Assembly: GCA_018003315.1 (NCBI GenBank) | Contig: JAGNEJ010000054.1 | Location: forward strand, 1 to 33,801 | DNA from: Verrucomicrobiales bacterium | Lineage (GTDB): Bacteria > Verrucomicrobiota > Verrucomicrobiia > Verrucomicrobiales > V1-33 | Direction: 5' to 3' | Length of the DNA stretch: 33,801 nucleotides | Shown: positions 13,178 through 33,801 of the stretch, in pieces | How positions within the stretch are numbered: the stretch's first letter is position 1 | Layout of the letters: each line of letters begins with the position of its first letter | Position numbers and translations under genes: made by a program | Notes under the pieces: generated by a model | Told to the model about the DNA's origin: nothing | The model's input: the letters and a program-made list of their open reading frames with translations, nothing else | Database searches by the model: none

Positions 13178-13251
13178 GCGGGTGTAGTTCAATGGTAGAA
13201 CACGAGCTTCCCAAGCTTGATACGTGGGTTCGATTCCCATCACCCGCTCCA
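13178..13251 (+). tRNA. tRNA-Gly (anticodon CCC), CCA encoded
   Basis: The sequence folds as a full cloverleaf. The acceptor stem GCGGGTG (13178–13184) pairs perfectly with CACCCGC (13241–13247). The D arm is GTTC/GAAC (13187–13190 and 13198–13201), and the anticodon stem is CGAGC/GCTTG with loop TTCCCAA (13208–13214), so the anticodon is CCC at 13210–13212. The T arm has GTGGG and CCCAT stems and a TTCGATT loop. The discriminator T is followed by an encoded CCA at 13249–13251. Confidence 0.95.
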
Positions 13252-13603
13252 TATTTGATAATCAATGGATTACGAAGAAAATCTGCCGGGTAATATGTAA
13301 GGTAATCCACAAAGTAATCCACTGGCCCAAGGAATTTCGGCAGATTCCAGAGCATTTCACGCCGGGTCAGAGGGGACTAACGGATGCGGTTCGAAACTGC
13401 GGCGGGAACGCAAATCACGGAGGACTCCCATCGATTCTCCAGCCAGTTGTGCCATGGCGACCGCCCTGGTTGTAGAGCGCCACTTGCCAGTGAGTGCCGG
13501 TCGCGGGATAATGTGGAATGTATGAGCCTATCTAGCCCGACTTCGCGGATTCGCCAGAGACTTGTGAGGTTTTATCGAGCCTGAGCGAGTCCAGAGGCCT
13601 CAA
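13252..13603. other. Gene-free stretch next to tRNA-Gly, with short repeats
   Basis: No convincing gene. Right after the tRNA the composition becomes AT-rich and holds TGGATTAC (13266–13273) and two direct copies of GTAATCCAC (13302–13310 and 13314–13322), the first being the reverse complement of the core of the other two. Such repeats beside a tRNA 3' end are what integrase arm-binding sites or an old attachment site look like, but no integrase gene and no second copy of the tRNA end are in the window. Small frames crossing the tRNA on the minus strand are not genes. Confidence 0.45.
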
Positions 13604-13615
13604 GTCTGCACTACA
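13604..13615 (+). repeat. 12-bp direct repeat, left copy (candidate target duplication)
   Basis: GTCTGCACTACA occurs here and, in the same orientation, at 14998–15009, bracketing the decayed IS1634-type transposase. IS1634 relatives are known for unusually long and variable target duplications, so this is a plausible insertion footprint. Confidence 0.55.
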
Positions 13616-13639
13616 CCGCGAGCGATTTCGTGCAGTCCT

Positions 13640-14951
13640 TCACCTTCGAGACGGGGTGGTGATTCTCGGTGGGGGCTGGTCAGGTAATGTGAGCTTGAGT
13701 TGGTCGAGCAGCAGCTGCAGATCCTTCTCAGGGTGAGTGTGGCGCGAAAGGATGATCTCGCGCCCATCGGTGGTCGGCAGGTTGACGTCCAGCATCTGCA
13801 TTGCGGCGAACTTCTCCAACACCGCTCTGGGCGTCAGTCCGCTGGCGCTCTTCTTGGGCCGGGCTTTCAAGGTGACTTGCAAGGCATAAGCCAGGAAGCT
13901 CACGAAGATGTGTGCCTCGATGCGTTCGTTGCGCTGATGAAGGACGGGACGGATGGCGAGGTCTCGCTTGAGTTCCCTGAAAGCTTGGTCGACCTCGGTA
14001 AGCAGGAGGTAGAACAGCCACAGCTTCCCGGGAGGGCGAAGCGAGCGTCGCGTCCGGCTTCCTTCTTCGCGGCGCCAAGGGCCTGATGCAGGGCGTCGCG
14101 TTGCATGGGGCGCTTGCGTCGGGTGATGGCCTTGAGCGCTTGGAGGTATTTTCGCAAGCGGCGGCTGTTCCAACATGGTGAGCCTGCCCTTGGGCGTGCC
14201 CACCAGATAACTCACCGGCGGAGTGCTGCGGCGCATTTCTTCGAACACCTCCTCGGTGGGAATGCCCAGTCGCGCCAACGCTGCGTGAGGTGATCGAAGA
14301 GTGGGCGTTTCTGTTGGAGCAGCAGATCATGGCAGGCGTAAAGGCGATGTTGTTCGGCGCGCCGGAAGTCGCTCCCGAGCAGGTCGGCAAGCGCACTGTG
14401 GTCGAACCAGTGGCGGTGCAGCCGCCATTCGCTGCCCGGATCGATCAGGCGATGGAGCACGAGGGTTTGCAGCACCAGATCCCAACGCGTGCCTTTGCGG
14501 CTGGCGGGCAGTTGCTCGCGCCAGAAGGTATCGAGTCCGAGTTGCTGCCACAGCTCGCAGCCCAGCCAGCAGGCACCCCACGGACGCGGCCTTCGCAGCA
14601 CCATCCCGGAGAGCCGCACGCGCACGACGGGCAACTCTTCGTCGCAGGATTGCACCGGGGCATGTTCCTCGGGAAAGAAGGCCACCTGCTGCGGAGCATC
14701 CTCATCCTGCCCGAAGTGATCCACGCCCTTGCGCCATGAAGCCTCCTGTCGGCCATTGCGTGCTCCGAGGTAGAGGACGTGGCGTTGCACGATGCGGCCT
14801 CCGTGCAGTCGGCGATTCTGCTTCGCGCCGCCTCACGGCGCTCACCCCTTCGGGGCAGCCTTCGGCTGGCGGCCTCGTCCCTCGGTTTCACGACACTCCG
14901 GTAGAAGTGCTCTTTGCCATCTTTGACGCGTTTGCTGCGACGCAGGAACAT
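13640..14951 (-). pseudogene. IS1634-type (IS4-superfamily) transposase, multiply broken
   Basis: Pieces of one transposase lie in three frames. The start MFLRRSKRVKDGKEHFYRSV (ATG at 14951) is followed, after a ~70-bp insertion that shifts the frame, by HGGRIVQRHVLYLGARNG and on to LLLQQKRPLFDHLTQRW. Near 14275 this joins LARLGIPTEEVFEEMR, then PPVSYLVGTPKGRL, meaning the central part with the catalytic Asp residues has been deleted. Another shift leads to ALHQALGAAKKEAG (13900–14157 frame), and a further one near 14030 to LLTEVDQAFRELKRDL and AHIFVSFLAYALQV, ending at 13640. The span could encode at most ~437 residues, whereas family members have about 550–600. The element is dead. Confidence 0.85.
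14818..14886 (+). repeat. ~70-bp triple-hairpin insertion inside the transposase pseudogene
   Basis: The transposase reading frame is continuous on both sides of this segment (VV/ENRRLHGG-type join in relatives) but is interrupted here by about 70 bp made of three adjacent hairpins. They are GCGCCG/CGGCGC (14825–14830 with 14836–14841, 5-nt loop), CCCC-TTC-GGGG (14845–14855) and CAGCC-TTC-GGCTG (14856–14868). An outer pairing GCCGCC/GGCGGC (14827–14832 with 14868–14873) can form as an alternative. It looks like a REP- or BIME-like small palindromic element; the family is not known to me. Confidence 0.6.
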
Positions 14952-14997
14952 GAAGGCTGATAAAGATAGCCATCGAAACCAGAGCGCAACCGCCAAG

Positions 14998-15009
14998 GTC
15001 TGCACTACA
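14998..15009 (+). repeat. 12-bp direct repeat, right copy
   Basis: Second copy of GTCTGCACTACA, the partner of 13604–13615. Confidence 0.55.
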
Positions 15010-15601
15010 AGCCGTTTTGGAGGGCACCCTCTTGTAAAATCAAAGGTTCCAGCGCCGTGAAAGGCCGAAAAAAGGCAAAAACCAGATCGAATCCGCGAAG
15101 TCGGGTTGGAATATTTGTGCGGCAATGAGCGATCGCCGGGGCGGTGCTCGGCATTTTTCAGTCTCGCTACCAAATTTGGCGGGACTCCCATGGTGCGCGA
15201 CGGGAAGGAACGGGCGGAGCGAGACAGATGGCTGTAACGAAATGCGGTGACGGCGCCAATGCATGGACCAAGGAGGGAATGATTCCTAACCACCACCAAC
15301 CCCCATGCACAACCACATCTCCATACAGGAATACCGCCAGGAACTCTACGGTGACACGGCGTATCCGATCCCGGTTCCGACCCCAGCTTTGCGGCCGCGG
15401 GTGGCGAAGCACGGTTCCGCCGCGGTGCCACCGTCATTGGCGGCAGAGCAGCCTCCAGGGATACCTTCCCCAGTTCCAGTGCTGCCTGATGTTCCCGCGC
15501 CAACCCGGCACCGGCACCGTTTTCGTGGATTCGTCGGGGCTTGCGCCCGGCTCTTCACTTGAGCATTGCCCGTCACCGGCCATGCCCGCAATCCCCGTGC
15601 C
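15010..15601. other. Gene-poor stretch before the sigma-factor locus
   Basis: I see no gene I would defend here. The best candidate is an 85-codon frame, ATG 15305 to 15562 (MHNHISIQEYRQELYGDTAY, then Pro-rich), which has no ribosome-binding site and no family resemblance; its Pro/Ala/Arg-rich second half is what GC-rich non-coding DNA yields. The segment is bounded by the IS remnant and the promoter of the sigma gene. Confidence 0.4.
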
Positions 15602-32914: not shown

Positions 32915-33801
32915 ATGCTGCTGTCGCTCCATCGCCCGCTCCCACAGCCCCGCCCAGCCCTGCTGCGCGTCCTGGAGGGCCTCTCGAACGGGGTCACGTC
33001 CGTGGCGCTCAGTGCCGATGGGCGCACCGCCATCTCGGGAAGTGTTGACAAAACCCTGCGCGTCTGGGACCTCGCCACCGGGCAATCCCGCGTCCTGGAG
33101 GGCCACTCGAACTGGGTCATGTCCGTGGCGCTCAGTGCCGATGGGCGCACCGCCATCTCGGGAAGTCTTGACAACACCCTGCGCGTCTGGGACCTCGCCA
33201 CCGGGCAATCCCGCGTCCTGGAGAGCCACTCGAACGGGGTCAGGTCCGTGGCGCTCAGTGCCGATGGGCGTACCGCCATCTCGGGAAGTGCTGACAACAC
33301 CCTGCGCGTCTGGGACCTCGCCACCGGGCAATCCCGCGTCCTGGAGGGCCACTCGAACTGGGTCAGGTCCGTGGCGCTCAGTGCCGATGGGCGCACCGCC
33401 ATCTCGGGAAGTGCTGACAACACCCTGTGCGTCTGGGACCTCGCCACCGGGCAATCCCGCGTCCTGGAGGGCCACTCGAACAGGGTCAGGTCCGTGGCGC
33501 TCAGTGCCGATGGGCGCACCGCCATCTCGGGAAGTGATGACAACACCCTGCGCGTCTGGGACCTCGCCACCGGGCAATCCCGCGTCCTGGAGGGCCACTC
33601 GAACGGGGTCAGGTCCGTGGCGCTCAGTGCCGATGGGCGCACCGCCATCTCGGGAAGTTTTGACAAAACCCTGTGCGTCTGGGACCTCGCCACCGGGCAA
33701 TCCCGCGTCCTGGAGGGCCACTCGAACGGGGTCAGGTCCGTGGCGCTCAGTGCCGATGGGCGCACCGCCATCTCGGGAAGTTTTGACAAAACCCTGTGCG
33801 T
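32915..33801 (+). CDS. WD40-repeat protein, 3' end outside window
   Basis: The ATG at 32915 opens a frame that is still open at the window end (at least 295 residues). After 18 residues come tandem 41-residue WD40 units, VLEGHSNxVxSVALSADGRT, then AISGSxDxTLxVWDLATGQS. Six are complete and a seventh is cut by the edge. Each has the GH, SVALS, D and WD signature of a propeller blade. The units differ almost only at residues 8, 10, 26, 28 and 31 of the repeat. WD40 propellers are interaction platforms and, at the C-terminus of STAND proteins, usually form the sensor. The gene is in a different frame from the NTPase and 28 bp after it. Seven blades would already form a closed propeller; more may follow. 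Confidence 0.85.
   Translation, partial: MLLSLHRPLPQPRPALLRVLEGLSNGVTSVALSADGRTAISGSVDKTLRVWDLATGQSRVLEGHSNWVMSVALSADGRTAISGSLDNTLRVWDLATGQSRVLESHSNGVRSVALSADGRTAISGSADNTLRVWDLATGQSRVLEGHSNWVRSVALSADGRTAISGSADNTLCVWDLATGQSRVLEGHSNRVRSVALSADGRTAISGSDDNTLRVWDLATGQSRVLEGHSNGVRSVALSADGRTAISGSFDKTLCVWDLATGQSRVLEGHSNGVRSVALSADGRTAISGSFDKTLC
32969..33801 (+). repeat. Seven 123-bp tandem coding repeats (last partial)
   Basis: Unit starts are 32969, 33092, 33215, 33338, 33461, 33584 and 33707, an exact 123-bp period. Units are nearly identical in DNA. I find a single silent change (CGC to CGT in unit 3), while changes at codons 8, 10, 26, 28 and 31, plus single changes at codons 4 and 5, all alter the amino acid. 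Units 6 and 7 are identical as far as visible. Confidence 0.95.

Follow-up and report, generated by a model that had tools for sequence, protein, structure and literature searches.

A hairpin repeat inserted in a degenerate IS1634-family transposase gene of a Verrucomicrobiales bacterium, probably a small non-autonomous mobile element

The DNA analyzed here (hereafter, the window) is a stretch of 33,801 nt from a Verrucomicrobiales bacterium. On its minus strand lies a degenerate insertion sequence (IS) whose transposase gene is interrupted by a short segment containing three hairpins. The features of the locus are as follows.

13533..15107, minus strand: degenerate IS1634-family insertion sequence copy (94.7% identity to the one on contig C47, same genome)
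14886..14951, minus strand: transposase codons upstream of the element, with a likely ATG at 14951
14886..14891, minus strand: target flank to the left, GTGAAA; other IS copies have GTCGAA, GTTGAA or GTGGAA here
14818..14885, minus strand: 68-nt mobile element running from CCGAGGGACGAG to GCGCGAAGCAG; its limits were set by comparing the filled site with the empty ones of L011, L198 and L199
14818-14886, minus strand: covariance-model match to the element (model R1, 87 bits)
14856..14868: hairpin 1 (plus strand CAGCC-TTC-GGCTG), from the sequence; relatives have A-T to T-A swaps, among others
14845..14855: hairpin 2 (plus strand CCCC-TTC-GGGG), from the sequence, with C-G to G-C swaps in relatives
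14825..14841: hairpin 3 (6-bp stem, 5-nt loop; plus strand GCGCCG-CCTCA-CGGCGC), from the sequence and covariation
14812..14817, minus strand: right flank AATCGC, where the transposase codons N-R-R resume, from filled/empty comparison

Read on the minus strand, the element extends from CCGAGGGACGAGG to GCGCGAAGCAG over 68 nt (complete segment, CCGAGGGACGAGGCCGCCAGCCGAAGGCTGCCCCGAAGGGGTGAGCGCCGTGAGGCGGCGCGAAGCAG) and is flanked by the transposase codons ...S-V-V-(K or E) on one side and N-R-R... on the other. Elsewhere in the window, Rfam recognized a tRNA gene at 13178-13248 (plus strand), some 300 nt away from the IS, and positions 32966-33801 hold 6-7 near-identical 123-bp tandem repeats (96% matches) that reach the contig end and that, by eye, encode 41-residue WD40-like repeats on the plus strand.

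An earlier, sequence-only reading had described three hairpins, two of them with TTC loops on the plus strand, that interrupt a dead transposase and shift its frame. The hairpins and loops were confirmed, with the segment ending at 14885 rather than at 14886, and the frame is indeed shifted, since 68 nt equals 3n + 2. As for the transposase, it is a dead IS1634-family copy lacking several internal parts: in a comparison with the related copy L004 (contig C114, same genome), the alignable residues were solely 1-44, 66-244, 340-378, 417-459 and 491-562. The family name of the window IS is likewise taken from L004, which scored 294.9 bits against the IS1634 transposase model NF033559 (cut-off, 100).

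The incoming frame passes through the window element without meeting a stop. In L004, where a natural 1-nt length difference is found just downstream of the element, the frame is open across it (562 aa up to the limit of the locus as read; 638 codons from stop to stop), and in L001 and L002, from the same genome, the element shifts the frame. We also considered a programmed frameshift or translational bypass in these IS copies and rejected it, as no repeated take-off and landing codon was seen by eye and the IS is dead.

As folded DNA, the 101 nt that include the element were ordinary for their base composition (z = -1.18, with 25 of 200 shuffles equalling them). Support for the hairpins comes from covariation instead. 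In 12 aligned copies, 96.6% of the cells could pair and 4 of the 15 pairs had changed on both sides, which none of 500 shuffles reached; in a more diverse set of 25 copies, both sides had changed in 10 of the 12 predicted consensus pairs. The copies measured were 58-81 nt long, with at least three hairpins and constant ends, namely RR followed across the left boundary by CCGR, and GA(A/G)(T/G)CAA up to the right boundary. A 22-nt core pattern is found at a single place in the window, with an expectation of zero from shuffles. A known RNA family was rejected as an identity for the segment: an Rfam scan of 8 sources gave 6 matches, none of them on the window element. A weak Rfam match in L091 (0.15), far under the family cut-off, overlaps the element of that locus.

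Comparison of filled and empty sites showed that the segment is a clean insertion after a GAA codon of the IS1634-family transposase gene. The loaded IS is present in multiple copies in its own genome. The insertion site in the window (site A) is empty in three natural IS copies, L198 from the same genus, L199 from genome G051 and L011 from genome G026; L199 is one of six G051 copies with open frames of 633-637 codons. At this site, the empty sequence of L011 reads GTCGAAAACCGCC, against GTTGAA-[element]-AACCGCC in L009 (genome G107). At a second site (site B), genome G107 has both states: its IS copy L124 carries an element there and its IS copy L106 does not. Here the junction GGCAGTGAA^TGGCGATTGC (also written CCTGGCAGTGAA^TGGCGATTGC) has gained 81 nt and lost none, so that the insert at GAA^TGG was acquired exactly, with no target duplication beyond a 2-nt (AA) ambiguity. 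The earlier proposal that the unit had moved, to be checked against empty sites in relatives, is thus upheld.

The GAA at sites A and B is present when these are empty and therefore belongs to the target there, not to the element. In a set of 51 distinct junction pairs, collected with a search pattern that fixed the element ends and not the flanks, the triplet to the left of the element was GAG in 20, GAA in 15, CAG in 8 and others in 8; an A occupied position -2 in 48 of the 51, and a G was never found at position +1. Insertion hence follows GAG, GAA or CAG. A classical MITE, which would be similarly short, mobile and devoid of its own transposase, was rejected, because the left end (CCGAGCGG...) is unlike the reverse complement of the right end (TTGCTTCG...), leaving no terminal inverted repeats, and because site B shows no target duplication apart from the AA ambiguity.

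Insertions can also accumulate. One IS copy, L124, carries four elements at four sites, and loci of genome G170, such as L108, show by eye a nested insertion in which the last hairpin of one element is split by another. This genome (2.5 Mb, free of Y1 transposase matches) has clusters in which elements are nested, along with several copies that are nearly identical, at L108 342-639 and L116 644-863.

Further copies, which the sequence-only reading had proposed to look for, were found in the same genome. A 91-nt query gave full-length matches on contigs C131, C47, C147 and C114, and a weak partial match on C63; the covariance model found five copies, those on the same four contigs plus C106:2140-2210. 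The copies on C131, C47, C147 and C114 lie at the identical codon of the IS (site A), meaning that they have evidently been carried by the IS. With four of the five copies at one IS site, the element's own jumping in this genome has evidently been small. The C106 copy (L123) occupies another site in the same type of IS, a site that by eye, from shared flanks, is also filled in the G107 copy L124. In L003, on C147, the IS match ends just past the element (319 nt aligned), and the 5' part of the IS plus the element are fused to other DNA. Two more hairpin-rich segments of similar grammar, with model scores of 17.5 and 15.2 bits, occur at L005 1454-1640 on C63; a query over one of them detected no second copy in the genome.

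The element and its IS flanks also differ in sequence conservation. At site A, the copy L002 and its counterpart L009 from G107 are identical at 65 of 68 element positions but at 245 of 310 positions of the IS flanks (Fisher p = 4e-4); over ten such pairs between the two genomes, p ranged from 4e-4 to 0.18. That the element is conserved above the IS flanks would not be expected if it had simply been inherited along with the IS. Repeated separate insertion at this one site, gene conversion or constraint would each account for the excess.

Related copies occur at other sites, in other genes and across the order. The covariance model found the element in 85 of 179 genomes of relatives from the same order, covering 26 of 43 genera; up to 28 candidates were scored per genome, so that copy numbers are lower bounds. 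BLAST gave matches in 43 of 189 genomes, its tally scoring four candidates per genome, again with copy numbers as lower bounds. A phylum-wide draw of 288 genomes contained 15 with a match, of which 13 belong to the same order and the other 2 to the remainder of its class. Any match scoring under about 30 bits must be regarded as uncertain, since a background of 30 Y1 transposase loci (97.7 kb) yielded one at 24.9 bits with E < 0.001. The segment might conceivably have been a one-off rearrangement or duplication, as the low copy number in its own genome (five), and nothing else, would suggest; this reading is refuted by the finding of both filled and empty states at several sites and by hundreds of matches in relatives, and we give it practically no weight.

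A core-pattern scan of named genomes returned 17 stretches, 12 of them in Verrucomicrobiota (Prosthecobacter, Verrucomicrobiaceae and one 'Verrucomicrobia bacterium') and 5 in Proteobacteria. When the five proteobacterial genomes were searched whole, four had one match and one had three. These proteobacterial matches may represent a separate family sharing the core. Some matches lie near tRNA genes, namely L102 2472-2539 (Lysobacter silvestris; Ser), L105 1258-1327 (Arg) and L242 (Ser), and L102 and L105 have a common 5' motif, GGTGAGAACTC...GTTCGAC. Searches of plasmids and of phages gave no matches.

Sequences were listed for 90 chosen matches, a selection from the total, and 80 of these entered the follow-on analysis. 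According to Pfam and NCBIfam, gene-internal copies reside in transposases of at least six families: IS1634, IS4 (L022), IS66 (L013, L014), IS630 (L125), IS110 (L017), Mutator/IS256 (L093) and an IS1380-like protein (L016, under the NCBIfam cut-off), besides other DDE_Tnp_1 proteins (L012, L106). Judging from the flanking open frames, the element also lies at or inside genes for group II intron-type reverse transcriptases (L034, L166), and it was found inside RhuM (L165), HsdM (L126, twice) and HsdS (L090, L100); a Pfam search assigned no family to the host gene of L010. As the loci were picked partly for recognizable flanks, the proportion within genes of mobile elements should not be taken as a measured rate. 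By eye, many copies are intergenic, above all those of a 60-nt short form.

The reading frame was followed in 23 gene-internal copies picked by recognizable flanks, all but L010 being resolved. Seven copies were in frame and stop-free, 2 were in frame with stops and 13 were shifted; in this sample, shared ancestral insertions are counted repeatedly (site A four times, site C twice, and hsdS probably a single insertion). Copies in frame and free of stops include the hsdS copies of two proteobacterial metagenome-assembled genomes, an hsdM fragment (twice), the IS630 and IS4 transposases, and the IS1634 copy L004. In both proteobacterial genomes hsdS is open and two stretches of HsdS match the specificity domain; the last hairpin of the element is not the same in the two, yet pairing is kept (GCGCCC/GGGCGC versus GCGTCC/GGACGC).

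Such copies bring to mind the protein-coding palindromic elements known from Rickettsia (RPE; PMC10969869); like these, the present element is a hairpin repeat found within genes and at times in frame with an open host gene. A protein-coding element selected for in-frame insertion is nevertheless very unlikely, because the open frame was kept in 7 of 22 resolved copies, an in-frame excess not clearly above chance, and because many copies are intergenic. By description, moreover, the element differs from RPE in being shorter, with several hairpins, in both orientations and often breaking the frame, and its gene-internal copies are mostly in mobile-element genes.

The best-known enzymes of the HUH type are the Y1 transposases, and through them the element could be linked to two known systems. 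Y1_Tnp genes are common, being found in 156 of the 179 genomes of relatives, and the genome under study has two good ones. The element was present in 76 of these 156 genomes, against 9 of the 23 without a Y1_Tnp match (G176 is counted among the latter, as it is not on the list of Y1_Tnp-matching genomes). The Y1-free carriers include G170, G013 and G052, with at least 28, 19 and 16 copies, respectively. When 52 Y1 transposase loci (22 + 30) were scanned for the element, the single match was the weak one of 24.9 bits. The presence of elements in 9 of 23 Y1-free genomes speaks against these enzymes as the mobilizing agents.

The first such link would make the element a REP/BIME unit belonging to the GTAG super-family, with a RAYT (REP-associated Y1 transposase) as its mobilizer. 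The sequence-only reading had envisaged a REP/BIME-like or MITE-like family particular to this lineage and had proposed a search for a RAYT-type transposase. Like GTAG/CGTC-tagged REPs and REPINs, the element is small, palindromic, dispersed and non-autonomous, with pairing kept over sequence; GTAG stands just 5' of hairpin 1 in L004, L009, L010, L011 and L013, and, according to PMC3733652, O. terrae (Verrucomicrobia) is rich in GTAG repeats. Our search of the PMC literature recognized no paper on such a repeat in Verrucomicrobiota. REPs, however, are palindromes of 20-40 bp with a terminal GTAG/CGTC tag on one side, whereas our element spans 58-81 nt with at least three hairpins and has untagged ends (CCGR... 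and ...GA(A/G)(T/G)CAA); in most copies GATAG or GACAG takes the internal place 5' of hairpin 1. The element also lacks a RAYT neighborhood, no RAYT bracketed by cognate repeats being present at the 52 Y1 loci, and is often gene-internal. Given these differences and the Y1-free carriers, a REP/RAYT origin seems to us rather improbable. What stands of the earlier view is a family largely bound to its lineage, not its RAYT connection nor its MITE-like character.

Alternatively, the element could be a solo end (terminal inverted repeat, TIR) of a TIRYT-type Y1 element. Its movement in trans would then depend on a tyrosine transposase that has TIRs, and not REPs, on its flanks. TIRYT genes, as reported in section 16 of PMC3733652, have TIRs with the common motif GGGGWSAS; most of our copies have GGGGTGAG beside a hairpin, which fits this motif, and the Y1 loci L041-L043 show a hairpin followed by GGGGAGAC. 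But GGGG is also a hairpin stem, so the match to GGGGWSAS may be chance; among the 52 Y1 loci no transposase gene flanked by the element was found, unlike the TIRs of TIRYT genes, and the Y1-free genomes again carry elements. This origin, too, seems rather improbable. The three loci L041, L042 and L043, from three genomes, have in common a hairpin and a GGGGAGACTCTC-type flank, likely a TIRYT terminal repeat.

Taken together, our results indicate that the segment is probably a small non-autonomous mobile hairpin repeat whose mobilizing enzyme, most plausibly of the HUH type, would be supplied in trans and act on a folded single strand. The clean gain, the short target, the lack of terminal inverted repeats and of any real duplication, and the conservation of pairing rather than sequence are what lead us to single-strand, HUH-like transposition in trans as the best guess. 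The element would fold as a single strand, to be cut and joined by the trans-supplied enzyme; a HUH-type single-strand transposase would presumably read the hairpins and the short target (GAR or CAG). Transposition of this sort is known from IS200/IS605 and REP systems, in which, according to PMC8266576, the cut is guided by a tetranucleotide 5' of a hairpin. The element may owe its persistence to being tolerated in, and carried along with, the genes of other mobile elements. We found no autonomous version or mobilizing enzyme, either at the 52 Y1 loci or in the interval between an opposed pair of copies in genome G015 (L127, 2.1 kb apart), where the genes look by eye like a sulfatase and a small membrane protein.

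A bolder version of this mobile-repeat reading, which we hold possible though unlikely, is that the element belongs to a distinct class of hairpin mobile DNA that is served by a non-Y1 enzyme and inserts after GAR. Such a class would be largely a hyperparasite in the genes of mobile elements and restriction systems, with some host genes staying open and the element translated.

Irrespective of the enzyme involved, the presence of filled and empty sites within one genome, together with a short target rule, reveals clean insertions of a hairpin repeat. Insertions of this kind make the movement of REP-like and RPE-like repeats testable, in a phylum where we have found little on them. The frequency of the element in the genes of other mobile elements, and the hsdS and hsdM copies that stay in frame, are relevant to the survival of such repeats and to the way they may shape proteins.
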